From assembly GCF_013280595.1 (NCBI RefSeq), contig NZ_JAAATY010000009.1, positions 248,001 to 312,000 of the forward strand: a DNA stretch of 64,000 nucleotides, given 5' to 3'. Source of the DNA: Kibdelosporangium persicum. GTDB taxonomy: Bacteria; Actinomycetota; Actinomycetes; Mycobacteriales; Pseudonocardiaceae. This document shows, piece after piece, positions 44,234-64,000 of this stretch. Positions within the stretch are counted from its first letter, which is position 1; each line of letters starts with the position of its first letter. Made by a program: the position numbers and the translations under genes. The notes beneath the pieces were generated by a model. It made no database searches. It was not told the DNA's origin and worked only from the letters and a program-made list of their open reading frames with translations.

Positions 44234-45412
44234 TCAGCCCAGCGCGGACTCCTCGATGATTCCGGCAGCGGCCCGTGCTCCGCCCGACGCCTGTATCTCC
44301 CTGCGCATCCACCGGAGATTGGCCTGGATGCCCGCGTCCGAGCTGATCTTCGCGACGGTTTCGCGCAGCGCCGTCACAGTGACGTCCTCAGGCCGCAGGT
44401 GCAGTCCGAGACCGAGCTCGGTGACCTGGGCCGCGTTGGGGTACTGCTCGGCGGTCTGCGGGACCGGCAGCAGCGGCACGCCGTGCCGCAGTCCTGCCAT
44501 CATCGTGATGACGCCCGGGTGGCCGATCAGCACCTGGGCGTGGGGCAGCACGTCCTCGTAGGGCACGTACCGATGGACCTGGACGTTCGGCGGTATGTGG
44601 CCGGTGAGCTCGCGGTTGCCCAGCGCGATCACCGCGTGCCAGTCCATCTCGGCGAACGCGTCGACGCAGGTGCGGGCGAACGCTGAGCCTTCCTGGAAAC
44701 TGCTGCCGAGCCCGATCAACGCCAACGGCCGCGAATCCAACGGCGGCAGCCACGTACCGTCCGGGGGTGGCACGCACGGGCCCACGAAATGGACGTTGTC
44801 GAACGTCGGTCCCGCCGGCTGGAAGGCACGCGGATGGTACGCGATCGTCCGCACGCCTTCGTCCAGCAGGAACTGCTCGACGTCCAGGCCGGTCCCGTCG
44901 AGCAACTGAGCCATTTCCCCGAGGACGTCACGGAAAACGGGGCCGCTGAACGAGTACTGCTCGTAGTTCCCGGCAGGGTTCCAGTGCTCGTTCGCGGCGA
45001 GCGTCCCCATGCTCTGCAAGGCAGGGATTCGCCGTCGCGCGGCGAACAACCTGCCCGCCCAGCTCAACGAGTCGTGCACGACCACGTCCGGCACGTCACC
45101 GGAGAACGTTTCCTCCAGCACAGGGAGCACTCGGCGCGCTTCGTGGGTCAGCATGCGCAGCGCGCTGACGTAGTCGTCATCCTTGTACTGGTCCGAGTCG
45201 AGCATGTCGGCGATCTGCTCGGTCGCCTCCGCGGTCCGCATCACCGACTCGACCGGCACGAGCTCCGCGCCCACCGCCTTGACCTGCTCGCCGAAATCGG
45301 TGGTGACCGCGTAGCTCACGCGGTGCCCCCTGGCGACGAGCTCGGTCACGACCGCCAGCGTCGGCGACACGTGCCCAGGGAACGGAACTGAACAGAAAGC
45401 TATGTGCACCAA
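44234..45412 (-). CDS. GT1 glycosyltransferase (macrolide/MGT type)
   Basis: This 392-residue GT-B enzyme starts with FCSVPFPGHVSPTLAVVTEL, the acceptor-domain motif with a GH pair. The donor domain has ALIGLGSSFQEG and LIGHPGVITMMAGLRHGVPLLPVP, where the usual HGG reads HPG. Such enzymes add NDP-activated deoxysugars to natural-product aglycones. It lies 20 bases downstream of the NDP-hexose 2,3-dehydratase gene on the same strand. The likely donor is therefore a 2-deoxygenated hexose and the acceptor the terpenoid product. It starts with TTG at 45412 (8 bases after GGAGG) or GTG at 45409. Confidence 0.88.
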   Translation of the reverse strand: MVHIAFCSVPFPGHVSPTLAVVTELVARGHRVSYAVTTDFGEQVKAVGAELVPVESVMRTAEATEQIADMLDSDQYKDDDYVSALRMLTHEARRVLPVLEETFSGDVPDVVVHDSLSWAGRLFAARRRIPALQSMGTLAANEHWNPAGNYEQYSFSGPVFRDVLGEMAQLLDGTGLDVEQFLLDEGVRTIAYHPRAFQPAGPTFDNVHFVGPCVPPPDGTWLPPLDSRPLALIGLGSSFQEGSAFARTCVDAFAEMDWHAVIALGNRELTGHIPPNVQVHRYVPYEDVLPHAQVLIGHPGVITMMAGLRHGVPLLPVPQTAEQYPNAAQVTELGLGLHLRPEDVTVTALRETVAKISSDAGIQANLRWMRREIQASGGARAAAGIIEESALG

Positions 45413-45431
45413 GGGGGAAACCTCCAGGACT

Positions 45432-46877
45432 TCACCACAGTGTCCGCATGCACGCGAGCAGGCTGCGTGCCTCGACGTTGAGGTAGTTGCTGTGCATCAG
45501 CAGGACTCCGAGCTGGTTGAGTGTCATCCAGCGGTAGCCGTACGGCGCCTCGACCGGGATGTCGTCGCCGACGTCGATGACGACGTTGCGGTTCTGGGCG
45601 TGCAGGAACCGACCGCCCTCTTCGGACTGCATCACGTCGTAGCGGATGCGGCGCGGGTCGACGGTCAGCACGTAGTCCAAATAGGACGGCCGATATCGCT
45701 CGGGATAGTGCGCGTAGTTGTCCGGCTGGCAGTGCACAGTCGGCGCCAGTTCCGCACCGTTGAGCGAACCCGCGTCGACCCTCGCCTGCATCAGCACGTG
45801 CAACACACCGTTGACGCGTTTTGTCAGAAACGCCGTCAGCCCGGGATTGTTCGGCTCGACAAGCGGTTGCCGCCACCCGGAGACCTCCCGGCTGCTGGCC
45901 TCCACGGACACCGCGACCACCTTGAAGTACCGACCGCTCTCGTGCGCGATCTGGACGTCGTCGCGGTACCAGCCGCCCTGCACCGTGTCGTTCAACGGAA
46001 TCCGCCGCTGGACCAGGTCGCGCGTCGCCCGGATCTCGGTCAGCCAGCTGAGGATGTCACTGCCGCTGTGCAACGCGGAAGTGTTGCCCGCCAGTGACTG
46101 CAGCAGTGAACCAGCGAACGTGCCGTCGCCGTCGGGTGCCTCGAATCCGACGGCTGGAACACAGGAGATCACGGTCCGCGAGTCCATGTTGACCACGTTG
46201 TCGCGCTGCAGGAGCTGTTTGATCTGACCGAAGGTCAGCCAACGGTAGTCGTCGCCGACCGGAACGTCCTCCTCGGTCTCGACCACCATGTTGCGGTTGC
46301 GCTTGTGCAGGAACCATGCGCCCTGTTCGGACTGCAGCACGTCGACGAGCACCCGACCGCCACGGGCGCCGGTGAAGTAGTCGAGGTAGTCGACGTGCTT
46401 GCCCCGGTGCACACCGAGGTAGTTGCTCCTGGTCGCCTGCACGGTGGGCGAGAGCTGCACCGTGTTGACGTTCCCCGGCTCCATCTTGGTCTGCATCAGG
46501 CAGTGCAGCACCCCGTCGAACTCCTTGACCAGGATGCCCAGGATGCCGATCTCCGCCTGCACGATGATCGGCTGGATCCAGCTGCTGATCCACTGCCGGT
46601 CGGTGCGCACACTGATCCCCTCGACCGAGAAGAACCGGCCGGAGGCGTGCGCCAGGTTGCCGGACCGAACGTCGAAGGCCCACCCGGTGGCCTCGGCGAA
46701 CGGAATCCTGCTGATCCTGGCCCGCCCGGCCACGGTCCGCCGCGCCAGCCAGTCCGCCAGCTCGGCGGCCGGTGTCACCGAGCTGTGCTCGGTCGCCGCG
46801 GACAGCATGAAACGGCGCGCGGTGTCAGCCTGATCAGCGACCGGCAGTTCGTGGTGGATCAGTGGTGTCTCGGCCAT
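45432..46877 (-). CDS. NDP-hexose 2,3-dehydratase
   Basis: This 481-residue protein consists of two similar halves (about 30-250 and 260-480). Each carries segments of the type GRFFSVEGISV, GVLHCLMQTKMEPGN, VQLSPTVQATRSNY and GYRWMTLNQL, the signature of the enzymes that remove the 2-hydroxyl from NDP-4-keto-6-deoxyglucose (relatives in tylosin, erythromycin and oleandomycin pathways). The product is an unstable 3-keto sugar that needs a 3-ketoreductase, encoded nearby at 47828-48844. The ATG at 46875-46877 is used. This is the strongest single marker of deoxysugar synthesis in the cluster. Confidence 0.93.
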   Translation of the reverse strand: MAETPLIHHELPVADQADTARRFMLSAATEHSSVTPAAELADWLARRTVAGRARISRIPFAEATGWAFDVRSGNLAHASGRFFSVEGISVRTDRQWISSWIQPIIVQAEIGILGILVKEFDGVLHCLMQTKMEPGNVNTVQLSPTVQATRSNYLGVHRGKHVDYLDYFTGARGGRVLVDVLQSEQGAWFLHKRNRNMVVETEEDVPVGDDYRWLTFGQIKQLLQRDNVVNMDSRTVISCVPAVGFEAPDGDGTFAGSLLQSLAGNTSALHSGSDILSWLTEIRATRDLVQRRIPLNDTVQGGWYRDDVQIAHESGRYFKVVAVSVEASSREVSGWRQPLVEPNNPGLTAFLTKRVNGVLHVLMQARVDAGSLNGAELAPTVHCQPDNYAHYPERYRPSYLDYVLTVDPRRIRYDVMQSEEGGRFLHAQNRNVVIDVGDDIPVEAPYGYRWMTLNQLGVLLMHSNYLNVEARSLLACMRTLW

Positions 46878-46916: not shown

Positions 46917-46962
46917 CTCGTGAGCGTTTATCAGGGTTAGAACACCGATAAACACTCACGAG
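46917..46962. repeat. Dispersed palindromic repeat / terminator, copy 2
   Basis: Sixteen-bp arms with one mismatch (46917-46932 and 46947-46962) and a 14-base loop that is the reverse complement of the loop in the copy at 10611-10656 (13 of 14 bases). It overlaps the stop codon of the methyltransferase gene (46956-46958) and separates that gene from the 2,3-dehydratase gene downstream. Confidence 0.8.
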
Positions 46963-47831
46963 GGGGGTTTGCCCGCCACCGCGATCACGTAGTCGGCACG
47001 GGCTATCTCCCGCGCCAGCGGGGAGTCGAGGCCAGGCGTGCCGACACGGTCGCGGAACTGCTTGTGGAACATGCCCATCTGGGCACGGGCGTCCGGCTCT
47101 TCGAGCCGCCTGGCCAGATACCGGCGCCATGGTTCGTAGACGTGCTCCCGGATCGACCGCACCGACACGTCGGTGTAGCCGGTCGCGGTCAGTTTGCGCG
47201 CGTACTCCTCGGCCGGATAACAGTTCTCCGGTGGCACGCCGCGTGCCACAGCGCTCCGCCGCACCGCGTCGGGATGCGTCGGCAGGATCTCCGCTGTGGC
47301 CAACACCCCGCCCGGCCGCAACACCCGGTACGCCTCACGGAAGAAGTCGACCCTGGTGAGAAAGTGATGCGCGGACTCGAGCGCGACGACGCGGTCGAAA
47401 CTGCCCGACTCGAACGGCAGCTCGGTCGCGGACCCCTCACGGAAGTCCGTGCGGTCAGCCAAGCCGAGCCGCCGGGCTCGCTCCGTGGCCGCGCGCACGT
47501 GCAGCGGGGTGATGTTGATCCCGGCGATCTCGCCGAGGTTCCTGCTGGTGAGCCAGTGCAGCGCCGCGTCGCCGTAGCCGAAGCCGACGTCGAGCACGCG
47601 GTCCCCCGGCTTGAAACCGGCTTCGTCGGCCAGCAGGTCTGCCAGTGCCTGGGCGGCCTCGTCCAGATCGGTGCAGCCCGACTCCCAGTAGCCGAGGTTG
47701 ACGTACGAGTTGGTCTTGTTCAACAGGTTGTAGTCGAACAGCTCGTACAGCCTCCTGATCTTCTTCTCCCGGGACGCCCCTTCGACCTGGATCGCCTTGA
47801 CCAGCATGCGGGCGGTTCGCCAGAAGCTCAT
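46956..47831 (-). CDS. SAM-dependent methyltransferase, probably acting on a sugar or aglycone hydroxyl
   Basis: This 291-residue class I methyltransferase has motif I RVLDVGFGYGDAALHW, motif post-I GINITPLHVRAATERA, motif II FDRVVALESAHHF and motif III LRPGGVLATAEIL. The N-terminal segment YELFDYNLLNKTNSYVNLGYW resembles natural-product O-methyltransferases of the EryG/RebM kind. It starts at the ATG at 47829-47831, overlapping the oxidoreductase stop by four bases, so it is translationally coupled to the 3-ketoreductase. Sugar O-methylation is the favoured but unproven role. Confidence 0.85.
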   Translation of the reverse strand: MSFWRTARMLVKAIQVEGASREKKIRRLYELFDYNLLNKTNSYVNLGYWESGCTDLDEAAQALADLLADEAGFKPGDRVLDVGFGYGDAALHWLTSRNLGEIAGINITPLHVRAATERARRLGLADRTDFREGSATELPFESGSFDRVVALESAHHFLTRVDFFREAYRVLRPGGVLATAEILPTHPDAVRRSAVARGVPPENCYPAEEYARKLTATGYTDVSVRSIREHVYEPWRRYLARRLEEPDARAQMGMFHKQFRDRVGTPGLDSPLAREIARADYVIAVAGKPPS

Positions 47832-48844
47832 CCCGGACGTCCCGTGAGCGGGCGGCGGACCGCGGCCATGCGCACACGGTCGACCAGTGCAGCCTGTCGG
47901 ACCACTGGTTTTCCTTCCAGTTCGGTGTTGACGCCGTGCCGGACACGGTTGACAAAGGCAGTGAGCACGCCGACGAAGTGGTCGTCGGCAGGCAACGTGA
48001 GAACCTGGACGGCGTCCTGTCGCTCGACCCGGACCACCGGCCGATGGGCCGCGGTCGGGGTGTACGCCCATTCGACGACGATCCGTCCCTCGCTGCCCCA
48101 GAGCTGGTAGCCGCACTTGTACGAGCGATCCATCCCGAACAACACGTGCGCGGTCTTGCCGTCGGCCGTGCACAACAGCGCACTGCCGCTCACGTCCACG
48201 CCGTGTTTCGGGTCGTACCGCAGGGTCGCGCCGGCCACGTCCAGTGCGTCGCCGAGGTACGTCAACGCCGTGCGGATCGGGTAGCCGCCGACGTCCAGCA
48301 ACGAGCCGCCGCCGAGGCCGGGCTGATAGCGCCAGTTGTCCGGTGACTTGCCGGGGAACGCGTACTCGGCGATGACGGTGCGCAGTTCGCCGATGGCACC
48401 GTCGGCGACGAGCCCGCGCACGGTCCGGTGCTGCGAGTGGCACAGGAACATGAAGTTTTCCAGGAGTGCCAGGCCCAGCGACTCGGCGAGGGCGACCCGG
48501 GATTCGGTCAGCTCCGCCGTCGCGGTCATCGGTTTCTCGGCCAGCACGTGTTTTCCGGCGCGCAGCGCCCGTTCGATCCACTCCGCGTGGCACACCGGCG
48601 GCAGCGAGATGTACACCGCTTCGACGTCCGGCCGGGCGAGCAGCCGTTCGTATCCGGTGACCGGCTCCGAGCCGAACCTGGCGGCGAGGTCCGCGGCCTT
48701 GCCCTCGTCGCGGCTGGCGATCGCGGTGATGTCGACCAGCGGTGAGGCCGCCATCGCGGGCAGTGTCCGGCGCGAAGCGATGTCCGAGCAGCCGAGCACA
48801 CCGCATTTCAGCGGCATGGTCGTGGTCTGCGGCTCCGCGAACAT
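47828..48844 (-). CDS. Gfo/Idh/MocA oxidoreductase, probable NDP-hexose 3-ketoreductase
   Basis: The 338-residue protein has an N-terminal Rossmann fold (KCGVLGCSDIASRRTLPAM), the family motif HVLAEKPMTATAELT with the catalytic Lys, and the C-terminal substrate domain with GGGSLLDVGGYPIRTAL. Enzymes of this group (KijD10 type) reduce the C3 keto group made by 2,3-dehydratases to give 2,6-dideoxysugars. Its place in the same leftward block supports that reading. The start is the ATG at 48842-48844 behind GGGGGTG. It heads the leftward operon. Confidence 0.88.
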   Translation of the reverse strand: MFAEPQTTTMPLKCGVLGCSDIASRRTLPAMAASPLVDITAIASRDEGKAADLAARFGSEPVTGYERLLARPDVEAVYISLPPVCHAEWIERALRAGKHVLAEKPMTATAELTESRVALAESLGLALLENFMFLCHSQHRTVRGLVADGAIGELRTVIAEYAFPGKSPDNWRYQPGLGGGSLLDVGGYPIRTALTYLGDALDVAGATLRYDPKHGVDVSGSALLCTADGKTAHVLFGMDRSYKCGYQLWGSEGRIVVEWAYTPTAAHRPVVRVERQDAVQVLTLPADDHFVGVLTAFVNRVRHGVNTELEGKPVVRQAALVDRVRMAAVRRPLTGRPG

Positions 48845-49293: not shown

Positions 49294-50085
49294 ATGACCA
49301 CTGGAGATCAGGGGCCGCCGGAATCCTTCTATTGGCAGCTTGTTTCCTTTGGAACAAGCCATGAGGACGTCGTTCTGATGCGTGCGTTCGCGGACACCAT
49401 GAATGGGTACTTCGTCGATGTCGGGGCCGCAGATCCGGTACTGGCTAATGTGGTCAAGAATCTTTCCGAGCATCTCGGCTGGACCGGGGTGCACATCGAA
49501 CCCGATCCGAATTTCGCCGACCGGCTGAAGAACGCCTACCCCGGCGACCACGTCGTGCAGGCGGTGGTCGGTGCGCGGGCCGGACGCGCGGAGTTCTTCG
49601 AGGTGGACGACGGGTGGCTCTCGACGATGGACCCGGTGCGGGCGGCCGCGTACGAGGACGAGGGACGGACGGTGAACTCCCGCGTGGTCGACGTCACCAC
49701 TCTGGACTCCGTGCTGCACTCGGTCGGCGCACGGGCCCCGATCGACCTGCTCAAGATCGACGTCGAGGGCACGGAGCCGGACGTGCTCGCCGGGTTGTCC
49801 TTCGAGACCTGGAAACCCCGGGTCGTGGTGGTCGAGACCACCACGACCACACCGCGCCCAGGCGCCGCCAACTGTGATGATCTGCTGCGCGCCCACGGAT
49901 ACACGCACACACTGTTCGACGGGTGCAACGGGTTCTACGTCGCACCAGGGGAACCACGGGAGTTCGTCGAAGCGTTGAGCGTACCGGCCAACGTGTTCGA
50001 CCGGTACGCACCCGTCATCTGGTTCCTGCAACTCGACGAGGACCAGCGGCCGCCCGTCCGGCTGGCGCCGCGCAGGCTGACGTGA
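49294..50085 (+). CDS. FkbM-family methyltransferase
   Basis: The 263-residue protein has motif I GYFVDVGAADPVLANVVKNL, GVHIEPDPNFADRL for SAM ribose binding, and the family hallmark DLLKIDVEGTEPDVLAGLSF. FkbM enzymes O-methylate hydroxyl groups of natural products and glycans. It stands between the deoxysugar block and the SARP regulator gene, so it probably methylates a sugar or the aglycone of this pathway. The ATG at 49294 lacks a ribosome site and probably lies at the transcript 5' end. Confidence 0.87.
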   Translation: MTTGDQGPPESFYWQLVSFGTSHEDVVLMRAFADTMNGYFVDVGAADPVLANVVKNLSEHLGWTGVHIEPDPNFADRLKNAYPGDHVVQAVVGARAGRAEFFEVDDGWLSTMDPVRAAAYEDEGRTVNSRVVDVTTLDSVLHSVGARAPIDLLKIDVEGTEPDVLAGLSFETWKPRVVVVETTTTTPRPGAANCDDLLRAHGYTHTLFDGCNGFYVAPGEPREFVEALSVPANVFDRYAPVIWFLQLDEDQRPPVRLAPRRLT

Positions 50086-50109: not shown

Positions 50110-53103
50110 TCACCTGGGCCCCAGCAAGTCCACTCCGGACGGAACGTGCCCGTTGCGCAGGTCGGCCAGATACGCCCGCACGTCGGCGGCGCGTTCGTCG
50201 TTGAGGTCGGTCAACATGCGGTGCGCTTCGGCGAGGAATCGCATGGCCTGTTCGTACTGACCGGCGCTCGCCTGCATCGTGCCCAGCGCGGTCAGCGCGT
50301 AGGCCTCACCGTGCCGATCACCGGCCTCGACACACACGGTGAGCGCCCGCTTGGTCGTCTCAGTCGCCTGCTCGTACTCGTCCCGCATCAGGTGCGTCTG
50401 GCCGAGGTTGATCAGGAACCGCCCGGCGACGAACATGTCGCCGGCTTCCTCGCTGTGGACACAGGCCTGCTGGTAGCACTCGATCGCCTCGTCGAGCATG
50501 TTCAGATCGCGATACGTGTTGCCGAGGTGGTCGAGGTTGATGCAGACCGCGTGGATGTCGTTGATCCGGCGGTAGAGCGCAAGCGCGTGCTCGTGGTGCC
50601 GGATCGCCACGTCGAACCGGCTCAGGCGCCGGTTCACCTCGGCGAGGCCCATCGCGGCGAACCCCTCGGCGTAGTGGTTGTCGATCTGCCTGCACACCTT
50701 GATGGTCGCCTCGTAGTACGCGATGGCACGCTCGTAGAGCCGTTGCTGGGCCCAGCCGAACGCCAGTCCGAGCAACAACTCGCACTCGACCTGCTGGTCC
50801 GACAGCATCCGGGCCGAGTTGAGCGCGATCTCGTACGCCGCGGTGCCGTCGGACCAGTGCCGTCCGACGTCGTAGTAACCCTCCAGTCGCAGCGGGATCT
50901 GGCAGGCGTGGGTGAGCAGGCCATGGTGCTCAGCGGCCCGGATCAGGTGCGGGATGTCGGCACGAACCGAGTCGCACCAGGCCAGCGCCTCGTCGACGTC
51001 GGCGAAGGCCACCGGCACCACCAGCGGATCCCGCGGCGCCAGCTCGGCACGACGGCGCACCGGATGGATCAGCTGGTCGCAGGCGTCCACCGTGTGCAGG
51101 TAGAAGTCCAGCAGCCGCCGCATCGCGCGGCGGATGTCCTGCGGGTCCTCGGCCTGCGCCCGTTCCAGCACGACCGCGCGCATCAGGTCGTGCAGTTCGT
51201 ACCGGCCCGGCGCGGCTTGCCTGATCAGGTGCGCGTCGACGAACTCCTCCAGCATCCGGTCGGCGGCCGGGACAGTGAGCCTGGCCAGCGCCGCCGCGGC
51301 GTTCAGCTCGATGGTCGCGCCGGGGTGCAGCCCGAGCAGGGTGAGCACTCGGCGCCGGTCGGGTTCCAGGTCGGCGATGGACAGGTTGAACGCGGCCGCC
51401 ACGCTGTGCTCGCCCGCGTACAGCTCGGTCAGCCGCTGCCGCAGATCGCCGAGCCGCTGCCGGACGTGCTCGAGCGTCCAGAAGGGACGGTCGCGCAGCC
51501 GGACCGCGGCGATCCGGATCGCCAACGGCAGCCGGCCGCACAGCTCGACGATCTCCTCGACCAGTTCGCTCGGTTCGTCGGAAAGCCGTTGCGGTGTGCA
51601 GATCCTGGTGAACAGGGTGACCGCGTCGGCGAGCGGCAGCACGTCGACCGACAGCGAATGCGCGTGGTGCAGCAGGCCGGTCAGCCGCTTGCGGCTGGTG
51701 ATCAGCGTACGGCTGGTTCCCGCACCCGGCAACAGCGGGCTGACCTGCGCCTCGCTGTGCGCGTTGTCGAGCACCACGAGCATTCTGCGGTGGGCCAGCA
51801 AGGAACGGTACATGCTGGCACGCGCTTCCGTGCTGTCCGGCAGCGCGCTGGTGGACGCGCCAAGAGCGCGCAGCATCAGCTCAAGAGCCTCCCGCGGCTC
51901 AAGTGGATCGACACCGTCGGTGTGCCCGTGCAGGTCCACGAACAGCTGCCCGTCAGGATACCGGGCTGCCAGCCGATGTGCGGCGTGCACAGCCAACGTC
52001 GTCTTGCCGGTACCTGCCATTCCGTCGATCGTGAAGATCACCCGTTCGGCGGTGGCGCTGCCCTCGCCGGTGGCCGGCATCGTGATCAGTTCGGCTAGTT
52101 CCGCATCGCGGCCGGTGAACGTGGGCAGGTCGGCAGGCAGTTGCGCCGGCCGGTCCGCGCCAGGAGGCGCCACCGGGTCGGGACGGACAGGCAACACCGT
52201 TCTGGTCGAGTGGCGGGTCCGGAAACCGTGCAGGCTCGCGGTGCCGGTGATCCGCGCCAGCCGCTCCGACGCCCGAGCGTCCGGCCGCCGGGAGTCCACT
52301 GTGGAGTCCGCGGCGCCCGGTGTCACGACGGCGGCGACCGGCGGCCTGCCCGGCTCGTCGCCCGCGAGCAGCCGCTGGTGCAGGTCGCGCAGTTCGGCGC
52401 CTGGTTCGACGCCGAGCTCCTCGACCAGGCGCAGCCGGGTCTGCCGGAACACGTTCAGCGCCTCGGTGCGCTGGCCCGACCGGTGCAGCGCGACCATCAA
52501 CATGCCGGCCATCCGTTCCCACAACGGGTTTCTCAGCAACAGCGCCCGTAGTTCGGGAAGGACATCGGCATGATGCCCGAGAGTCAACCGGGTTTGCAGG
52601 TATTGCTCATGCACCCGTTCCCGATGAGCCTCCAGCCGGGCCGACTCGGCCTCGAGCAACGGTTCGAGCGCCACGTTCTCCAACGCCCTGCCCCGCCACA
52701 CGCGCAGCGCCCGCTCGTAGAAGTCGCAGGCGACCGCCGGGTCGGTGGCCCGCTCCCCCTGCGCCGCCAGGTCGGTGAACCGGTCGACGTCCAGCTCACC
52801 GGGCCGCACCGTCACCAGGTGCCCGCCCCTGCGCGTCCGCAGCCGTGACTCAGGCTCGTCCGGCACCCGCAAAATGCGGCGCAGCCTGGTCAGATACGTC
52901 CGCAGGTTGGACTCAGCCGATGTGGGCAGATCCGACCACACCAGCTCAAGCAGTTGCTTAGTCCGTACCTCCTCGTTGGCGTGCAACAGCAGCGCGGCCA
53001 GCACCGCCCGCTGCCTTGGGCCCCCCAGCGGGCGCTCCTGTCCGGTCAGGTATACGGTCACCGGGCCGAGCAGCTTGAACTCCATGGCACTTGCCCACGG
53101 CAT
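50110..53103 (-). CDS. Large SARP-type pathway regulator (SARP/BTAD, NB-ARC ATPase, TPR)
   Basis: The protein has about 997 residues. An OmpR-like DNA-binding domain (FKLLGPVTVYLTG through LRTRRGGHLVTVRPGELD) is followed by a BTAD domain (DVDRFTDLAAQG to about 260). A linker leads to an NB-ARC/STAND ATPase with P-loop IDGMAGTGKTTLAVHA and Walker B MLVVLDNAHSE. At least seven C-terminal TPR repeats follow. This is the AfsR-like architecture of cluster activators in actinomycetes. It diverges from the ParB-like regulator across a 200-base region. Start: ATG at 53101-53103 (AAGGAA 8 bases upstream), or ATG at 53083-53085, which gives the family-typical MEFKLLGP. No TTA codon was found. Confidence 0.92.
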   Translation of the reverse strand: MPWASAMEFKLLGPVTVYLTGQERPLGGPRQRAVLAALLLHANEEVRTKQLLELVWSDLPTSAESNLRTYLTRLRRILRVPDEPESRLRTRRGGHLVTVRPGELDVDRFTDLAAQGERATDPAVACDFYERALRVWRGRALENVALEPLLEAESARLEAHRERVHEQYLQTRLTLGHHADVLPELRALLLRNPLWERMAGMLMVALHRSGQRTEALNVFRQTRLRLVEELGVEPGAELRDLHQRLLAGDEPGRPPVAAVVTPGAADSTVDSRRPDARASERLARITGTASLHGFRTRHSTRTVLPVRPDPVAPPGADRPAQLPADLPTFTGRDAELAELITMPATGEGSATAERVIFTIDGMAGTGKTTLAVHAAHRLAARYPDGQLFVDLHGHTDGVDPLEPREALELMLRALGASTSALPDSTEARASMYRSLLAHRRMLVVLDNAHSEAQVSPLLPGAGTSRTLITSRKRLTGLLHHAHSLSVDVLPLADAVTLFTRICTPQRLSDEPSELVEEIVELCGRLPLAIRIAAVRLRDRPFWTLEHVRQRLGDLRQRLTELYAGEHSVAAAFNLSIADLEPDRRRVLTLLGLHPGATIELNAAAALARLTVPAADRMLEEFVDAHLIRQAAPGRYELHDLMRAVVLERAQAEDPQDIRRAMRRLLDFYLHTVDACDQLIHPVRRRAELAPRDPLVVPVAFADVDEALAWCDSVRADIPHLIRAAEHHGLLTHACQIPLRLEGYYDVGRHWSDGTAAYEIALNSARMLSDQQVECELLLGLAFGWAQQRLYERAIAYYEATIKVCRQIDNHYAEGFAAMGLAEVNRRLSRFDVAIRHHEHALALYRRINDIHAVCINLDHLGNTYRDLNMLDEAIECYQQACVHSEEAGDMFVAGRFLINLGQTHLMRDEYEQATETTKRALTVCVEAGDRHGEAYALTALGTMQASAGQYEQAMRFLAEAHRMLTDLNDERAADVRAYLADLRNGHVPSGVDLLGPR

Positions 53104-54384: not shown

Positions 54385-55419
54385 ATGCAGCGCATGGACT
54401 CCGGCCGGACGGTGCTGATCACCGGCGGCTGTGGCTTCATCGGCACCCACCTGGCGACCAGTCTGTCCGGCCAGGGCTTCCGGGTGGTGGTCGCCGACCT
54501 GGCGCCCTGGCCGGACCGGCTGGTCGAGTCCGTGCGGCTGGACATCGCGGACTTCCCGGCCTGCACCGAGGTGATGCGGGCGGTGGACCCGCACGTCGTG
54601 TTCCACCTCGCGGCCTCGTCCACGATCGACTCGGCGTACCACGATCCGCACGGGTCACTGGTGACCAACGTCGGCGGGACGATCAACCTCCTGGAGGCCG
54701 CCCGGCTCGGCGCGAGCAGGCTGGAGCGGTTCGTGTTCTCCTCGACCGACAAGGTCTACGGGGAACTGACCGGCGACGCCTACGTGGAGTCGTCGCCGTT
54801 GGAAGCCCGCGGCGTCTACGACGTCGGCAAGATGTCCGCTGACACCCTGGTCCGGCTCTACGGCTCGGAGTTCGAGCTGCCGACGGCGATCCTGCGGCTG
54901 TGCAACGTCTTCGGCCCCGGTGACCCGAACACCGGGTCGCGGATCGTGCCCCGCACGCTGAGCAGGCTCTTCGACCCGGCCGGCCCCCAGCCGCCGGTGA
55001 TCTACGAGGGATCGATCGCCCACGGCAGGGACTACGCGTACGTGACCGACGTCGTGCGGGCGCTGACCACGATCGCTTTCGACCGGCGAGCGGTCGGCGA
55101 GACCTACAACATGGCACCCGCGGCCCACCGCACCACACTTGACCTGGTCGAAGAGATGATAGATCAGTCCAGACGGGCCTGCGAACCACACGACCGGGAC
55201 CGCGCCGACGCCATCAGGAAGAACGGGTACGAAGTCGTGCACGGCCACGGCATGCCACGTGCCCTGGAACGACAACACTGTGACGGCGGGAAGATCAGCG
55301 CGCTGGGCTTCCGCAACGTCGTGTCCATGTCGGAGGGACTGCGCCGGACGATCACGTCGTCCATGCGGGAGTTCGGCATCGTCCCGGAATCGGACGACGA
55401 CCGTTGCCAGACCGCCTAA
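54385..55419 (+). CDS. NAD-dependent nucleotide-sugar epimerase/dehydratase (extended SDR)
   Basis: This 344-residue protein has the NAD motif VLITGGCGFIGTHLATSL, FHLAASSTIDSAYHDP and the catalytic YDVGK (Tyr145, Lys149). The segment before it reads SSTDKVYGE (Asp122-Lys123). RmlB-type dTDP-glucose 4,6-dehydratases have Asp-Glu there, while CDP-glucose and UDP-GlcNAc 4,6-dehydratases have Asp-Lys. It may therefore be a 4,6-dehydratase of the DK type, or a 4-epimerase/decarboxylase. It is the only such gene in the window. Position just after the ParB-like regulator makes it the first structural gene of the operon. Confidence 0.85.
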   Translation: MQRMDSGRTVLITGGCGFIGTHLATSLSGQGFRVVVADLAPWPDRLVESVRLDIADFPACTEVMRAVDPHVVFHLAASSTIDSAYHDPHGSLVTNVGGTINLLEAARLGASRLERFVFSSTDKVYGELTGDAYVESSPLEARGVYDVGKMSADTLVRLYGSEFELPTAILRLCNVFGPGDPNTGSRIVPRTLSRLFDPAGPQPPVIYEGSIAHGRDYAYVTDVVRALTTIAFDRRAVGETYNMAPAAHRTTLDLVEEMIDQSRRACEPHDRDRADAIRKNGYEVVHGHGMPRALERQHCDGGKISALGFRNVVSMSEGLRRTITSSMREFGIVPESDDDRCQTA

Positions 55420-56653: not shown

Positions 56654-58386
56654 CAGAGCTTCGTGACTGGGAAGGCGTTGACGTGAACGTCGGACAGCTT
56701 CAGGCACGCGCCGACCGGGCCGCCGAGAGCGCGATCACCCACCTGTACGACCGGCAGCGAGAGGACGGGTCGTGGGTGGACCGGTTGTCCTCCTCGACGA
56801 TCGCGACCTCGCTCGGTGTGTTGTCGCTCAACCGGGCCGATCCCGAAGGCTACGCGTCGCGTATCGCTTCCGGCATCGCGTGGTTGCGTGCGCACCAGCG
56901 CGACGACGGCGGCTGGGCGATGGCCGACGCGGAGTGGCCGAGCAGTCCGGGGATGACCGCCTTCGCGATCGCCGCGCTGCACGAGGTCGACTCCGACGCG
57001 TCCCACCGGCACATCCAGCGTGGCCGGACGTTCCTGGACGAGAACGACGCGGTGAACGTGATCCCCGGCCTGAACGGCCAGGCGCCGAAGACGTGGCCGG
57101 CGGCGTTGCCGACCATCTGGGCGTTGACCGGGCTGCGTGACTTCGAGCAGCAGCCGGATCTGCCGGTCGAGGCGATTCTGGTGCCGCGGCGGTGGCGCAA
57201 CAAGGTGTCGATCGCACTGCCGGCGATCCTGGGGCTGGGTGTGATGCAGAGCCGGACGATGAAGCGGTCCGCGCCGCGCCGCGTCCTCGGCCGGATCGCC
57301 GAACCGCTCGCGTTGAACTGGCTGCGGGAGATCTCCGGGACCAACGGCGGGATCGAGGAGTGCCCGATGATCGCCGGGTTTCTCTACCTCGGGCTGCGGC
57401 AGGCCGGTACCGGTGTCGATCTGCAACTGGCGTCGCTGCGGTACCTGCTGGAGACACAGCGGGAGGACGGGTCGTGGGCGATCGACCGTGATCTGGAGAT
57501 CTCGGTGACCGCGTACTCCATCATGGCGCTCAGCGAGTTCCAGGACGTGGCCACCGAACCGTTGATGCAGGGCACCCGGGAATGGCTGCTGCGCAACCAG
57601 TGGAACAAACCGTTCCGGCAGTTCGGGATTCCGTCGGGCGGCTGGGGCTGGGCCAATCCGTCGGGCTGGCCGGAGTCCGAGGACACCGCGGTCGTCCTCG
57701 GGGTGCTCGCCGACCTCGGCGTGCCCCGCACGCACCCGGCCGTCCAGCTCGGTGTGCAGTGGTTGTTGAAGATGCAGAACCGGGACGGTTCCTGGTCCGA
57801 ATGGGTTCGCAACACCAACATCATGAACGACCGGCCGTGCCCGGGCGTGACCGCCCACGTCGTCATGGCGTTGCAGCGGTACGGCCTGTCGGACGCGCCG
57901 GGCACGGCGCTGGCAAGGGCTTTGGAATACCTGCGCACACACCAGGAGAAGGACGGGTCGATCTCGTCGGTGTGGTTCCGCGACAACACCCACGGCACCA
58001 GCAGGCTGCTTGAGGCCTTTGTGGACAGTCGAAAGGGCAGTGAGCCCGCCGCGGTGGCGGCACGGGACTGGTTGCTGGCCAACCAGGCCGCGGACGGCGG
58101 CTGGCCACTGAAGCACGAGCTCCCGCCGAAGGGCAGCACGGCCGAGGAAACCGCGTGGGCGCTGTTCGCGTTGCTCAAGGCTGGCGAGAACCCCGCCGGC
58201 CCGGCCATCCTACGAGCCGTGGAGTGGCTGGTGAACCACCAGGACAGCCAGGGCACCTGGCGGCCGAGCAATGTCGGGCTGTACTTCGACGACCTGTGTT
58301 ACACCGACGACCTGATCGCGCACACGTTCGTCCTGCGTGCCCTCGGCCGGTGGATCAAGACCATCTCCCGGGGTGAGTCGGGATGA
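56647..58386 (+). CDS. Squalene-hopene-cyclase-like class II terpene cyclase with ESED in place of DXDD
   Basis: The protein has 579 residues (hopene cyclases have about 630). Six to seven QW repeats are visible: QREDGSW, QRDDGGW, TQREDGSW, MQNRDGSW, HQEKDGS, NQAADGGW and HQDSQGTW, covering both alpha-barrel domains. The catalytic acid motif DXDDTA, which protonates the polyene, reads Glu343-Ser-Glu-Asp346-TA. Both the lead Asp and the protonating Asp are thus Glu, with the final Asp kept. The residues before it (WGWANPSGWP) align with the normal context. The substrate should be a linear isoprenoid (C20-C30) supplied from elsewhere. The TTG start follows GAGGAG; GTG 56683 is an alternative. 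The start of P450 1 overlaps the stop (ATGA). Confidence 0.9.
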   Translation: MVAELRDWEGVDVNVGQLQARADRAAESAITHLYDRQREDGSWVDRLSSSTIATSLGVLSLNRADPEGYASRIASGIAWLRAHQRDDGGWAMADAEWPSSPGMTAFAIAALHEVDSDASHRHIQRGRTFLDENDAVNVIPGLNGQAPKTWPAALPTIWALTGLRDFEQQPDLPVEAILVPRRWRNKVSIALPAILGLGVMQSRTMKRSAPRRVLGRIAEPLALNWLREISGTNGGIEECPMIAGFLYLGLRQAGTGVDLQLASLRYLLETQREDGSWAIDRDLEISVTAYSIMALSEFQDVATEPLMQGTREWLLRNQWNKPFRQFGIPSGGWGWANPSGWPESEDTAVVLGVLADLGVPRTHPAVQLGVQWLLKMQNRDGSWSEWVRNTNIMNDRPCPGVTAHVVMALQRYGLSDAPGTALARALEYLRTHQEKDGSISSVWFRDNTHGTSRLLEAFVDSRKGSEPAAVAARDWLLANQAADGGWPLKHELPPKGSTAEETAWALFALLKAGENPAGPAILRAVEWLVNHQDSQGTWRPSNVGLYFDDLCYTDDLIAHTFVLRALGRWIKTISRGESG

Positions 58387-59753
58387 CCGCCACCCCGGCG
58401 CGCGGAGTCGCCGACGCGGTGCCCGGCAGGACCCGGCGCCTGCCGCCTGGCCCACGGCTGCCCGCGGTGGTGCAGACGGCGATGTGGGCCGTCGCGCCGG
58501 TGTGGTTCGGCAAGACGTGCCTGCGCCGCTACGGGCCGCTGTTCACCGCACGGATTCTCGGGTTCGGCGATGTCGTCTACATCAGCACACCGGACGGCAT
58601 CCGCCGCATCCTGCGCGACGACGCCGGTGATTTCGACGCGGCCGCGGCGAACGAGTCGATCCGGTTCGTGGTCGGCGAACACTCGCTGCTGATGTCCGGC
58701 GGCGCCCAGCACACCGAACGGCGCAAGGTGCTGATGCGGCCGTTGCACGGCGACAACGTCACCGCGTACGTCGAGGTGATGAAGTCCATTGTGGAGCAGG
58801 AGGTCGTCGGGTGGCGGCCGGGGTCGGCCGTGCGGCTGCTCGACTGCTTCCAGCGGGTCACGCTGGAGGTGATGATCCGGGCGGTCTTCGGCATCACCGA
58901 CTCCGCCCGGCTGACCCGGCTGCGGGTGCTGGTGCCGAAGCTGCTCGACGTCAATCCGCTGATCATCCTGGTGCCCGCGGTACGCCGGTCGTTCGGCGGA
59001 TTCGGGCCGTGGGCGGCGTTCCAGCGGCTGCTGCGGGAGGTCGACCAGATCATCTTCGCGGAGATCCGCGAGCGCCGCGCGGAGCTGGCCGCCGACCCGT
59101 CCGGACGGGGCAGTGACGTGCTGTCCCTGCTGCTGGCCAAGGGCCAGGACAATCCGGCGGTCACCGACCAGGAGCTGCGCGACCACATGGTCACCCTGCT
59201 CGCGGTCGGCCAGGAGACCACCGCGACGCAGCTTGCCTGGTTCTTCGAACGGGTCGTCCGCGCGCCGGGCGCGCTGGAACGAGTCGAGACCGCGGTGCGC
59301 GACGAGGACTGGAAGGTCCTCGACGCGGCGATCCACGAGGCGATCAGGTCCCGTCCGACCACATTGGACATCGGCAGGATGGCCACGAAGGAATGGACGG
59401 CAGACGGCTACGTCTTCCCCGCGGGCACGATGTTCGCGGTCTCGCTCGGCTTGCTGCACCTGTCCGGGCGACTGCATCCGGCACCGGAGAGCTACTCCAT
59501 CGACCGGTTCCACCCGGTCGAGCCGCCGAGTGCGCACTTCCTGCCGTTCGGCGGCGGCAGCCACCGGTGCCTCGGCGCTTCGCTGGCGATGATCGAGATG
59601 CGCACGGTGATCAGTACGATCCTGCGCTCCGTCCGGCTACGGGTGCCCCGGTCCACACCGGAAGGGGTCAAACCGAAGGGGCCGATGCTGGTCCCGCGCC
59701 GGGGCGCGCAGGTGATCGTCACGGAGAACCGTCTGTTCGCGGGACGAGGGTGA
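58383..59753 (+). CDS. Cytochrome P450 (1 of 4), LPPGP-type
   Basis: The 456-residue protein has the proline-rich N-terminus RRLPPGPRLPAVVQ typical of CYP110/CYP120-like enzymes rather than the short actinobacterial type. Its I-helix is LLAVGQETTATQLA (acid-alcohol pair intact), its ExxR motif EAIRSRP, and its heme loop FLPFGGGSHRCLGASLA with Cys396. It overlaps the cyclase stop by four bases, so the enzyme is made with the cyclase and probably oxidises the cyclised hydrocarbon first. Position on the scaffold cannot be predicted. No dedicated ferredoxin gene is in the window. Confidence 0.93.
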   Translation: MTATPARGVADAVPGRTRRLPPGPRLPAVVQTAMWAVAPVWFGKTCLRRYGPLFTARILGFGDVVYISTPDGIRRILRDDAGDFDAAAANESIRFVVGEHSLLMSGGAQHTERRKVLMRPLHGDNVTAYVEVMKSIVEQEVVGWRPGSAVRLLDCFQRVTLEVMIRAVFGITDSARLTRLRVLVPKLLDVNPLIILVPAVRRSFGGFGPWAAFQRLLREVDQIIFAEIRERRAELAADPSGRGSDVLSLLLAKGQDNPAVTDQELRDHMVTLLAVGQETTATQLAWFFERVVRAPGALERVETAVRDEDWKVLDAAIHEAIRSRPTTLDIGRMATKEWTADGYVFPAGTMFAVSLGLLHLSGRLHPAPESYSIDRFHPVEPPSAHFLPFGGGSHRCLGASLAMIEMRTVISTILRSVRLRVPRSTPEGVKPKGPMLVPRRGAQVIVTENRLFAGRG

Positions 59754-59755
59754 GA

Positions 59756-60961
59756 ATGGACGTACCGGTCCGTAGTTTTCCGTTCCCGCGTGCGCCGCGG
59801 TTGGACCTGGAGCCGGAATACCGGTGGTTGCAGGACAACGAGCCGGTCACGCGGGTGAAGTTCCCGTACGGCGAGGAGGCCTGGCTGGTCACCAGGTACT
59901 CCGACGTCCGCACCGTGCTGACTGACCCGGCGTTCGGCCGTGCCCTTTCGCTCGAACGTGACGTACCGCGGGTGACGGAGGAGAACTTCAGCGGCGGCAT
60001 CGTCGCGATGGACCCTCCCGAGCACACCCGGGTTCGCGCCGTGTGCCGGCACGCGTTCACCCCCAGGACGGTGGCGCGGCTACGCGAACGCGCCACGGCG
60101 ATCGCCACCGAACTGGTCAAGGACGCGCTGGCGGCGGAGATTTTCGACGGCGTGGCGGACTTCGCGCTGCCGTTCACCCTGAAGATGATCTGCGAGCTGC
60201 TCGGGGTGCCGTACGCCGACCGCGACCACTTCCGGCACTGGGCCGAGGCCGGCCTGGCGACCACCTCGATCTCCGAGGACGAGCGGTGGGCGGCCACCGG
60301 GCACATGTGGGACTACGTCGCCGCGCTGGTCGCCGAGCGGCGTGCGAAGCCGCAGGACGACCTGATCTCGGCCATGCTCGCCGTCCAGGCGGACGGCGGG
60401 ACGGTGTCCGACGACGAACTGGTCATCCTCGCCATGACCATCCTCGTGGCCGGCTACGAGACCACGTCGACCCAGCTGCCGAACTTCGTCTACGTCCTGC
60501 TCGAAGACCGCACTCGGTTCCAGCGACTGGCGGCCGATCCCCTGCTCGTGCCGACCGCGGTCGAAGAGCTCATGCGGTACGTACCGCTGGAAGCCAACGG
60601 CACGACGCCCCGCTACGCCACGCAGGACGTGGTGCTCAGCGGCACCCTGATCGAGGCGGGCTCGCCGGTGGTGGCCGCGTCGGTGATCGCCAACCGCGAT
60701 CCACGGGTGTTCACCGACCCCGACCGGCTGGACTTCGCCCGCGATCCCAATCCGCACATCGGGTTCGGCGTCGGCGCGCACTTCTGCCTCGGCGCGCCGC
60801 TGGCGCGGCTGGAACTCCAGGTGGCGCTGGAGGTGCTGACCTCGGCCGCGCCCCGGGTGCGGCTGGCCGCCGACGAGCAGGCGATCGAGTGGAAGGCCGG
60901 GATGCTCGTGCGCGGCCCGTCCCGTCTGATGCTGACCGAGAGGAGCGGAGAGACGTCATGA
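59756..60961 (+). CDS. Cytochrome P450 (2 of 4), CYP105/107-like
   Basis: This 401-residue soluble actinobacterial P450 has [18 protein letters not shown] in the C-helix, I-helix [12 protein letters not shown] (intact Glu-Thr pair), ExxR in [11 protein letters not shown] and heme loop [18 protein letters not shown] with Cys344. The ATG at 59756 follows GAGGG by 6 bases and lies 2 bases after the previous stop. The stop overlaps the next P450 gene by four bases (ATGA at 60958-60961). A tailoring hydroxylase for the terpenoid is the natural reading. Confidence 0.93.
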
Positions 60962-62199
60962 CCTCACCCGAACCTGGCGCCGCCGTCACGTCCCGCGAAC
61001 CACCGCCGGTCGAACGGTTCCGGCCGGCCGACCTGGACGAGCAGGACTGGCGGAAACTACGGGCCACCTGCCCGGTCTCGCACGTCACCACCCCGGACGG
61101 CACCGACGTCTGGCTGGTCAGCCGCTACAAGGACATCCGCAAGGTGCTGGGCGGCCAGGTGTTCAGCGTGTCCCCGATCGACCTGGAGCGCGGCGGCGGA
61201 ACGGCCGAGGCGAACGAGTCGATCTTCCAGGACCCGCCCGAGCACACCCGGTTGCGCGGCCTGGTGGCCGGGCCGTTCGCGGTCGGCTACGTCGAGCGCT
61301 ACCGCGACACGATCCGGGCCAAGGCCGACCAGCTGATCGAGGCCATGGGCGCGGCGGGCGCACCGGTCGACGTGATGGCCGGTTTCGCCAAACCGTTGAC
61401 GATGAACGTGATCGCCGAGGTCGTCGGCGTGCCCGAGCCGGACCGCGGGATGTTCCAGGAGCTGTCCGACCAGTTGCTGGTGCCGCTGTCCGAGGCGCAG
61501 GGCGTCATCGCGCTGGAAGGCTGGAAGCAGCTCAACGACTACGTCCGCGACCTGATCGCCGAACGTCGCCGCACCACCGGCCACGAGGGTGCGGACCTGC
61601 TCGCGCACATGATCCGGGCACAGGAGAACGAAGGCACGGTCGACGACGTCGAGTTGGCGACCATGGTCCTCGGTCTGCCGGTCGCGGGGTACGTCAGCAC
61701 CGCCAACGCGATCGCCGTGGCCATGCGTTACCTGGTGGAGTTCGGCTGGCTGGCCGAGTTGCGGGCCGCCGCGGACCCCGCCGAGCTGCGCAAGCAGTTC
61801 GTCGAGGAAGTGCTGCGAATCCAGTCGGGGGACAACGGCGAGTCGATGCCGCGCTTCGCCTCCGAGGACGTGCAGGTGGGGGAGGTCACCATCCGCAAGG
61901 GCGACATGGTGGTCGCCCCGCTGATCGCGGCCAACCGCGACGAGGAACTGTTCGCCGATCCCGACACGTTCGACCCGCGCAGGCCCGGCCTGATCCGGCA
62001 CATCGCGTTCGGTTTCGGCATCCACCGCTGTCTCGGCGCCAACCTGGCCCGCCTGGAGTTGCAGGTGGTCATCGACGCGCTGACCGAGTGCGGGCTGGAC
62101 TTCGAGATGGTCGAGGCGTGGAAGGCGGTGCCGTGGAAGGTCAACATGCTCGGTGACCGGTTCCCCGAGCGGATGGTGGTCCGGGTGAGGACGCCATGA
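60958..62199 (+). CDS. Cytochrome P450 (3 of 4) with altered I-helix
   Basis: The 413-residue protein has ExxR in [10 protein letters not shown] and heme loop [17 protein letters not shown] with Cys358. The I-helix oxygen-activation motif, normally AGxET, reads Ala243-Gly-Tyr-Val-Ser-Thr248: the acid is replaced by Val and the Thr by Ser. P450s with such changes in actinomycetes often do unusual chemistry (dehydration, epoxidation by a substrate-assisted route) or use altered proton delivery. Four-base overlaps on both sides place it firmly in the operon, before the second glycosyltransferase. Confidence 0.92.
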
Positions 62200-63362
62200 C
62201 GGGCAAACACGTTCTGTACGCGTCGATCCCGGCATGGGGACACGTCTACCCGGTGATCGAGGGACTGACCGAACTGGTCCGGCGCGGCCACCGGGTGAGC
62301 GCGCTGGCGTCGGGGAGTTTCGCGCCGGAGGTCGGCGAAGTCCTTGACGTGGTGCGTTACGACTCGCCGATGGACAACTCGAACGCGGCCCTCGCGGACA
62401 TGAGCACCGTGCTGCCGCTCATGCTCAAGGAGACGCGCACGGCCTACGCCACGCTCAGCCAGGCCATCCGCGACGACCGGCCGGACGTGATCGTGTCCGA
62501 CGTGCTGTCGACGGCGGGCTGGCTGGCCGGGCAGGCCTTCGGCATCCCGGTGATCCGGACGTGGCCGGTGTTCGCGTCGAACTCCGAGTTCTCGCTGCAC
62601 CAGGACTACGAGTCACGGTCGGACACCGACGAGTCGATGGCCGCGTTCTTCGGTGCTGTGGCGGAGTTCCTCGACGACGTGGGGCTGTCGTCGTCGGTGT
62701 CGCCGGAGCAGTTCTTCGACAACGAGGCCGACCGCAACATCGTGCTGTTCCCCCGCGAGATCCAGCCGAAGGGCGAGACGTTCGACGAACGGTTCACGTT
62801 CATCACGCCGTGCATCCGGCCGTCCGAACAGTCCCCGGAACGGCAGTGGCTGGCCGCGTCGCAGCCGCTGGCCGTGGTCTCGCTCGGCACGGTGTTCAAC
62901 GACAAGATCGGTTTCTTCCGCACGTGCATCGAGGGCGTCGAGCGCCTCGGCTGGTACACGGCGGCCGCGTTGGGCGGCAAGGTCTCCCCGGCCCAGGTCG
63001 GCCCGATCTCCCAGCGGGTGCTGTTGCGGGCGAAGCTGCCGATGATCGACACGCTGCGGCACGCGTCCGTCGCGATCTCCCACGGCGGGCTCACCAGCAC
63101 CATCGAGGCGCTCGCGCAAGGTGTGCCGGTGCTGATCGCCCCGCAGATCGGCGAACAGCGCGGTGTGGCGGACAGCATCGAACGGCTCGGCCTCGGGGTC
63201 CGGCTGCACGAGCCGTTCACCTCGGCCGAACTGGCCGACGTGATCAAGACGGTCGCGAACGACTCCGCCATGGCCGAACGGCTCGAACAGTTCAAGCAAC
63301 GGCTGCGGGACGGCCGCAGCGGGGCGCAGTTCGCGGACGCCGTCGAAGTCGCGTTCGCCTAG
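62196..63362 (+). CDS. GT1 glycosyltransferase (second of the cluster)
   Basis: This 388-residue GT-B enzyme begins [20 protein letters not shown]. The donor domain has [16 protein letters not shown] and [21 protein letters not shown] with the canonical HGG, ending in [19 protein letters not shown]. It belongs to the same macrolide-type group as the enzyme at 44234-45412 but differs clearly in sequence, so the product probably carries two sugars or a disaccharide. Coupled by ATGA to P450 3; the fourth P450 gene starts 24 bases after its stop. Confidence 0.92.
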
Positions 63363-63386
63363 CGCCACGAAGGGAGGTGCTTTCCC

Positions 63387-64000
63387 GTGCAGCACGAACA
63401 ACTGACCGCACCACTCGCCGACTACCCGTTCACCCGTGACTCGATCATCGAGCCGGCACCGGCACTGGCGGACCTGCGCACCGCCGCGCCGATCCACAAG
63501 GTCCGGCTGGCGTCCGGCGGGCACGCCTGGCTGGTCACCCGGTACCAGGACGTCCGGCTGGTGCTCAACCACCCGGCCTTCGGCACGCAGTACCCCGGGT
63601 CGATCCCCGTCGCGGACGAGGACAACCTCGCGGCGGGGTTCATGTTCCTCAAGGACCCGCCGGACCACACCAGGCTGCGCCGGAGCGTGACCCGCGCGTT
63701 CACCGCGCGGCGGATCGCCGAGCTGCGCGACCGCGCGCAGGAGGTCGCCGACGACCTGGTCACCGCCATGCTCGCCGCGGGCCCGGTCGCGGACATCCAG
63801 GAGCAGTTCGCCTATCCCCTGCCGATCTCGATCATCTCCGAACTGCTCGGCATCCCGGACGCCGACCGCGGCCGGTTCCGCGGCTGGGCCGACATCGTGG
63901 TCCGTTCGGTCGGCGGCGCGGACTTCGGGGCGGCCTTCACCGATCTGCAGCGGTTCGTCGTGCGGCTCGTGGAGTCCAAACCGGACGGCGGCGATCTGCT
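63387..64000 (+). CDS. Cytochrome P450 (4 of 4), truncated by window end
   Basis: The first 204 residues are visible from the GTG at 63387 (GGAGG 10 bases upstream): N-terminus with YPFTRDSIIEPAPAL, B-C region FGTQYPGSIPVADEDNL, and C-helix PPDHTRLRRSVTRAFTARRI, all typical of CYP105/107-like enzymes. The I-helix and heme loop lie beyond the window. The operon clearly continues to the right, where further tailoring genes and possibly the prenyl synthase would be expected. Confidence 0.9.
   Translation, partial: MQHEQLTAPLADYPFTRDSIIEPAPALADLRTAAPIHKVRLASGGHAWLVTRYQDVRLVLNHPAFGTQYPGSIPVADEDNLAAGFMFLKDPPDHTRLRRSVTRAFTARRIAELRDRAQEVADDLVTAMLAAGPVADIQEQFAYPLPISIISELLGIPDADRGRFRGWADIVVRSVGGADFGAAFTDLQRFVVRLVESKPDGGDL

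Follow-up and report, generated by a model that had tools for sequence, protein, structure and literature searches.

In fungal meroterpenoid pathways, a prenyl chain is transferred by a UbiA-type enzyme, epoxidized by a FAD-dependent enzyme and then cyclized. An excerpt of PMC13307353 counts Pyr4 as part of this logic. For bacterial type II terpene synthases, PMC9814783 describes 964 sequences found by BLAST from Tpn2, in which the central Asp of the catalytic motif is almost 100% conserved. Here we describe a locus of the soil actinomycete Kibdelosporangium persicum whose class II cyclase departs from this rule. It lies in a 64,000-nucleotide stretch of DNA (the window, meaning the whole stretch analyzed), from position 44234 rightwards, and continues on the same contig; its genes are numbered g38 to g62. 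The cyclase, g47 (56683..58386, + strand), carries E-S-E-D in place of the usual motif, and this is the most unusual feature of the cluster. Together with genes past the window for a UbiA protein, an epoxidase, a PhyH dioxygenase, a B12 radical-SAM methyltransferase and enzymes of the methylerythritol phosphate (MEP) pathway, it changes an earlier interpretation made from the letters of the window alone (the sequence-only reading). We now favor, with a probability of roughly 0.6, a pathway in which an epoxidized chain would be cyclized by a Glu acid and then oxidized, methylated and glycosylated.

Both domains of the squalene-hopene cyclase (SHC) family were matched by g47 (SQHop_cyclase_C at 146.6 bits, the N domain at 97.9 bits). 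Its AlphaFold model (pLDDT 89.8) shows the double alpha-barrel fold, with SHC 2sqc as the best match in the PDB (TMq 0.83, 24% sequence identity) and human oxidosqualene cyclase (OSC) 1w6k at TMq 0.79. The fold is thus alike, whereas the motif is not: in a gap-free match the P-D-V-D-D-T of SHC corresponds to P-E-S-E-D-T in g47 (residues E331-S-E333-D334), which places the enzyme outside the DXDD type with its middle Asp as general acid. No squalene-synthase gene was found among the genes scanned here. In a tree of 56 cyclases (midpoint root, no outgroup; nine duplicates or partial sequences, L019, L021, L016, L013, L026, L130, L067, L114 and L064, left out), one clade (SH-aLRT 100) has E-[ST]-E-D in all of its 14 sequences. 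The neighboring clade under this root has D-x-D-D and comes from Chloroflexi, Rubrobacteraceae and other actinobacterial genomes; N-F-L-D-S is found in phenalinolactone-like Streptomyces loci and x-x-L-E in a further clade. These positions put non-DXDD motifs in at least two separate parts of the cyclase family. Of the 24 cyclases that the window and the scan of named contigs provided, 19 are in alignment A2 (L047, L054, L064, L066 and L067 were left out, the fetched stretch of L054 holding one stop codon). The g47 family may lie outside the survey of PMC9814783. On the contig of the window (C9), about 230 kb to the left, we also noted a third class II cyclase-like gene of this genome (C9:18027-18818, L009; 528-aa frame, 30% identity), with a SARP/TPR gene similar to g43 about 8 kb from it.

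The motif was found to go together with a particular neighbor. Using our own hidden Markov model, built from the FAD monooxygenases of the g47 clade and of the Streptomyces loci, an epoxidase-like gene was detected within the flanks fetched for 31 of the 34 non-DXDD loci versus 1 of the 8 DXDD loci (Fisher p 3e-5, the rows not being independent). These 42 loci are the tree rows for which flanks had been fetched; outside the count stand L130, where an epoxidase was found and DXDD is absent, and L064, with a DXDD-like motif and no epoxidase found. Of the three non-DXDD misses, one (L052) does have such a gene on its contig, 23 kb off. Since the epoxidase-like g55 is matched at E 1e-30 in only 6 places in the 10.35 Mb of the window's genome, a chance proximity is unlikely. 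Oxido-geranylgeranyl diphosphate (oxido-GGPP) is called more easily protonated in an excerpt of PMC11795633, and PDB titles list a type II cyclase as D303E variants with bound farnesyl diphosphate, which presumably is unreacted there. The association, the protonation of oxido-GGPP and the D303E complexes together favor epoxide-first cyclization with an altered acid, and perhaps the motif acid of g47 was swapped because the enzyme works on an epoxide.

Cyclase matches at E 1e-40 or better were obtained in 27 of 397 genomes of the order, the window's own counted, and the scan of named genome contigs gave 23 cyclase relatives. Closest to g47 are the cyclases of Actinokineospora fastidiosa (88%), of a record labelled 'Rhodococcus rhodnii' NRRL B-16535 and of Kibdelosporangium aridum (83%), followed by Amycolatopsis coloradensis (83%), Kutzneria sp. 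CA-103260 (77%) and Nonomuraea terrae (75%). The label of the Rhodococcus record (JOAA01; L046, L053; 12.4 Mb) looks wrong, as it apparently is a Kibdelosporangium beside K. aridum. The run from cyclase to epoxidase, g47-g55, is kept in order in all six closest clusters at 63-88% identity, across Actinokineospora, Kibdelosporangium, Amycolatopsis, Nonomuraea and Kutzneria; within it, g49 (71-86%), g50 (68-88%) and g51 (63-84%) each occur in six of six, and g48 is matched at 12 of 13 related loci, a set that includes a second copy in the window's own genome. Genes g56, g60 and g61 are likewise found in all six; in N. terrae, g61 precedes the cyclase, g56 and g60 lie on another, short contig, and PhyH is present as two tandem copies (L049:18068 and 18945; 69% and 64%). 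Also among the six are g45 (6/6), g44 (5/6, 62-77%) and g62 (4/6), while g46, g57, g58 and a close g59 are each present in three; g43 has a 68% homologue in the same place in A. fastidiosa. Judged by this conservation, the glycosyltransferase g51 and the short-chain dehydrogenase/reductase (SDR) g45 belong to the core. Across the clade, a UbiA gene and a polyprenyl synthase gene lie close to the cyclase at all 13 other loci and a FAD epoxidase-like gene at 12 of them; that of Amycolatopsis sp. A133 is 23 kb off on the same contig. Within the genus, the cluster's UbiA protein was found at 75% identity or more in 3 of 8 genomes, that of the window included.

Gene calling combined with Pfam and NCBIfam recovered at 44234-64000 everything that the sequence-only reading had listed there: a class II cyclase, P450s, two GT1 glycosyltransferases, sugar genes, methyltransferases and regulators, with the fourth P450 extending past the window edge. 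Left of the cyclase are g43, a SARP/NB-ARC/TPR regulator (50110..53085, - strand; BTAD 120 bits, NB-ARC, TPR), g44, an HTH regulator (53314..54369, +; HTH_24 28 bits) that may be StrR-like, the extended SDR g45, perhaps a sugar dehydratase or epimerase (54385..55419, +; Epimerase 155.7 bits), and the methyltransferase g46 with a Cys-rich stretch at its N-terminus (55583..56653, +; Methyltransf_23). An assignment of g45 as an RmlB equivalog was rejected (138.6 bits vs a cut-off of 365.1). To the right follow, all on the + strand, the P450s g48 (58383..59753; PF00067 165 bits), g49 (59801..60961; 95.9 bits) and g50 (60958..62199; 98.8 bits), the GT1 glycosyltransferase g51 (62196..63362; NCBIfam MGT 262.8, cut-off 260) and the P450 g52 (63387..64000, on to L007:1571, 571 bases past the window).

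Because the contig runs on for 13,669 bp beyond position 64000 (stretch L007) and ends within an ispG/GcpE gene, 64000 is the edge of the window and not of the cluster. The extension adds g53-g62 and the start of ispG (L007:1568-14669). It encodes a PhyH dioxygenase (g53, with the fungal dioxygenases PrhA and AusE among its solved relatives), a UbiA protein (g54, L007:2482-3450; PF01040 117.7 bits), the FAD_binding_3 monooxygenase g55, a methyltransferase (g56), a protein (g57) with a match to the N-terminal domain of acyl-CoA-dehydrogenases, an alpha/beta hydrolase (g58), a fifth P450 (g59) and a KedN5-type B12 radical-SAM methyltransferase (g60; NF033712 1027.1, cut-off 700; CPYKCSFC at 211, i.e. 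CxxxCxxC). Further right lie the polyprenyl synthase g61 (L007:10688-11722), of a kind that the earlier reading had proposed to look for, a LytB-DXS fusion (g62, L007:11802-14495) and the start of the ispG/GcpE gene (L007:14492-14669), which the contig end cuts. LytB, the enzyme that ends the MEP pathway, and DXS, which begins it, share one 897-aa frame in g62; the homologues in Actinokineospora and K. aridum are 901 and 906 aa long. The nearest solved sequences to g60 are TokK and CysS; it differs from the KedN5 family in lying within a terpenoid cluster without polyketide genes, and no terpenoid precedent for a KedN5-type radical SAM was among the matches listed in the literature search. As anticipated, no polyketide synthase or nonribosomal peptide synthetase domain was found in the 30 proteins scanned, and the gene content supports the proposal of one cluster for an oxidized, methylated and glycosylated isoprenoid. 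It probably spans no less than the stretch from 44234 to the end of the contig (L007:14669) and combines a conserved core with a strain-specific sugar block.

The polyprenyl synthase gives some indication of chain length. All 14 clade members have Ala as the fifth residue before DDxxD, where G995 and G1035, two Streptomyces genomes with phenalinolactone-like loci, have Phe. In an excerpt of PMC7261888, a Met to Ala change at this position in cyanobacterial CrtE shifts the product to C25, and type II and III GGPP synthases are described in PMC9385802 as having an insertion in the first aspartate-rich motif (FARM) and a His before GQ. Neither the insertion nor the His is present in g61. With Ala before DDxxD, this makes C25 or longer likelier than C20 as the predicted product, so that of the C20-C30 isoprenoid proposed earlier the isoprenoid nature stands and the lower end of the range looks less probable. 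The first motif of the UbiA protein g54 reads GDYFDRELD, with Gly for Asn as in most relatives and Ser in a few; the UbiA proteins of the cluster family share GDxxDRxLD, or SDxxD in a few cases. The usual UbiA motif is NDxxDxxxD.

The left end of the cluster is of a different kind. It consists of the GT1 glycosyltransferase g38 (44234..45370, -; EryCIII-like_C 73.7 bits, NCBIfam MGT 302, cut-off 260), the NDP-hexose 2,3-dehydratase g39 (45432..46877, -; PF03559 529 bits), the methyltransferase g40, perhaps a sugar O-methyltransferase (46956..47807, -; Methyltransf_11), the Gfo/Idh oxidoreductase g41, a probable NDP-sugar 3-ketoreductase (47828..48844, -; GFO_IDH_MocA 84 bits), and the FkbM methyltransferase g42 (49378..50085, +; PF05050 79.7 bits). 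The deoxysugar genes listed by the sequence-only reading are present, but g38, g39, g41 and g42 have no counterpart at the 13 related loci (18-60 kb fetched around each cyclase), which makes the block look like an accessory of this strain; we read it as a putative strain-specific second glycosylation. Homologues of g40 (43-44%) were found in three of the 13 clusters. With four of its five genes unmatched, we rejected the idea that the block belongs to the conserved core. Many genomes of the family carry a 2,3-dehydratase (147 of 297), and the best relatives of g39 are 61-62% identical. At the eight places fetched for these (seven in other genomes, one elsewhere in the window's genome), the terpenoid core was present at none, homologues of g41 at four (48-53%) and weak homologues of g40 at two, and the complete g38-g42 block was not seen at any. 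Homologues of g41 (47-53%) also share loci with other 2,3-dehydratases. Two RmlB-type dehydratases score over the cut-off elsewhere in the window's genome and can supply the NDP-sugar precursor of the block.

Phenalinolactone of Streptomyces sp. Tu6071 was compared only through G995 and G1035, whose gene content presumably corresponds to it. Both hold a homologous cyclase, a UbiA protein and a FAD/squalene-epoxidase-like protein, along with ketosynthase III (KS III), acyl-CoA-dehydrogenase, adenylation and B12 radical-SAM proteins, a 2,3-dehydratase, a DegT protein and a FAA hydrolase; a TauD protein is found in G995 alone. We take this gene content to fit phenalinolactone (5-methylpyrrole, trideoxysugar, butyrolactone) and the acyl-CoA-dehydrogenase to be of the prolyl type; KS III, prolyl dehydrogenase, adenylation and radical-SAM proteins presumably are the 5-methylpyrrole-2-carboxylate genes. 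Shared with our cluster are the polyprenyl synthase, a UbiA protein with GDxxDRxLD, the FAD epoxidase, a non-DXDD type II cyclase, DXS and ispG, P450s, a 2,3-dehydratase and a g41-like ketoreductase. The FAA hydrolase and the TauD dioxygenase, taken as lactone genes, are not among g38-g62, and the pyrrole-type genes were not found here, where only the KedN5-type radical SAM and the acyl-CoA-dehydrogenase N-domain protein occur; PhyH and the KedN5-type enzyme set this cluster apart from the phenalinolactone type. The shared core logic without lactone- or pyrrole-type genes suggests a diverged relative of phenalinolactone-like clusters. The sequence-only reading had assigned phenalinolactone another kind of cyclase, which was mistaken: the Streptomyces loci of that gene content hold homologues, 32-33% identical to g47. 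It had also held that the gene set matches none known, which stands insofar as no product for the cluster appeared among the matches listed in open-access literature (among the near relatives, the searches by genus name covered Kibdelosporangium and Actinokineospora) and fails for the core shared with phenalinolactone-like clusters. No terpenoid glycoside was reported for these two genera among the matches listed. Longestin (KS-505a), for which PMC10301674 gives a structure and cites work on its cluster, was considered as a possible match.

From these genes we propose the following route. The LytB-DXS fusion g62 and ispG would supply C5 units for g61 to build a prenyl chain of C25 or longer, which g54 would join to a small acceptor, for which no gene was seen in the cluster. 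The FAD monooxygenase g55 would convert the terminal double bond to an epoxide, and the middle Glu of E-S-E-D in g47 would protonate it to yield a 3-hydroxylated polycycle. Oxidation by the five P450s and the PhyH dioxygenase, methylation by the methyltransferases including g60, and glycosylation by g51 would follow; in this strain, g38-g42 may add a second sugar, 2,6-dideoxy and perhaps O-methylated, from dTDP-4-keto-6-deoxyglucose made elsewhere in the genome. In comparison with the fungal meroterpenoid systems, the cyclase here is of the soluble SHC type rather than the Pyr4 type, and there is no polyketide gene. Gene content, conservation, predicted fold, the motif change and its association with the epoxidase are observations. 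The chemical steps, and the sequence in which the UbiA protein, the epoxidase and the cyclase would act, are assigned by family membership.

Some findings weigh against this route. Restricted to loci of at least 15 kb, the epoxidase-like gene is found at 30 of 33 without DXDD vs 1 of 4 with it, and the remaining DXDD loci are short contigs where it could be missed; L061 has both DXDD and the epoxidase-like gene, L055 and L131 have neither, and the association comes down to two or three independent contrasts (sign test p 0.5). Ala before DDxxD also occurs in the phenalinolactone-like locus G872 and in the DXDD loci read. Gene calls for the window and L007 come from a home-made gene caller, and start sites may be off. 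Finally, the sugar block would be tied to the terpenoid aglycone by its position and by the g40-like genes of sister clusters. It could also be that g54 is a diphosphate-ionizing cyclase acting after g47, as in a classical type II/type I tandem, where g47 protonates an alkene of the unmodified polyprenyl diphosphate, a UbiA-type terpene synthase ionizes the product and the FAD enzyme acts late. UbiA-type cyclases are reported beside type II synthases in excerpts of PMC9814783 and PMC10301674, and the DXDD loci of Chloroflexi and Rubrobacteraceae combine cyclase, polyprenyl synthase and UbiA with no epoxidase detected, several of them being short contigs. The tandem nevertheless seems unlikely to us, with the catalytic middle Asp replaced by Glu in the whole clade and the epoxidase-like gene near all but one of its other loci.

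We give about as little credit to two unrelated neighbors, i.e. a terpenoid core from g43 onwards and a deoxysugar module (g38-g42) for another aglycone. The missing counterparts of g38, g39, g41 and g42 at 13 of 13 related loci and the wide spread of 2,3-dehydratases would suit such a division, whereas no aglycone gene was recognized among the five genes scanned left of 44234 (two without a Pfam match, the others of peptidase-inhibitor, glucuronoyl-esterase and deacetylase/GT2 type), three sister clusters carry g40-like methyltransferases, and the block brings its own glycosyltransferase and ends beside the regulator g43. Quite improbable is a plain phenalinolactone/tiancilactone-type cluster for a C20 gamma-butyrolactone diterpenoid glycoside. 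It would explain the common core of polyprenyl synthase, UbiA, FAD epoxidase, non-DXDD cyclase, DXS/ispG and P450s, but not the distant cyclase with its N-F-L-D-S counterpart, the Ala instead of Phe before DDxxD, or the lack among g38-g62 of the FAA hydrolase, KS III, adenylation protein and full-length acyl-CoA-dehydrogenase of G995 and G1035 and of the TauD protein of G995.

A paralogous cluster lies on contig C48 of the same genome (C48:1-35000; L008, L148). Its cyclase is 58% identical to g47 (35-37% to the phenalinolactone-like ones) and has the same E-S-E-D; around it lie UbiA, epoxidase-like, PhyH, DXS, P450 and glycosyltransferase genes, together with KS-, FabA-like and PP-binding genes, and no homologue of g39 or g41 was found in it. 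The core thus seems to be re-used with different side modules. The epoxidase-like gene sits equally far off, at about 23 kb, in the C48 cluster and in its relative in Amycolatopsis sp. A133. Contigs C9 (L007:14492-14669) and C48 (C48:3-311) both end within ispG-like genes that share 95% identity over 58 aa; the assembly probably broke at a repeat there. A joint end of the two contigs was rejected, as both ispG-like genes read towards the contig end.

More tentatively, the E-x-E-D cyclases may be a bacterial lineage in their own right, epoxide-specific type II enzymes with a Glu proton donor that arose apart from the oxidosqualene cyclases and the phenalinolactone-like N-x-L-D clade. Their products would then be terpenoids of C25 or longer, glycosylated and C-methylated by B12 radical-SAM enzymes, a class not yet described. 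The clade-wide Glu beside epoxidase-like genes offers a testable case of a cyclase acid tuned to its substrate, and E-x-E-D with an epoxidase-like gene could serve as a marker for mining epoxide-type terpenoid clusters. With MEP genes of its own and retention in five or more actinomycete genera, the cluster should be worth expressing.

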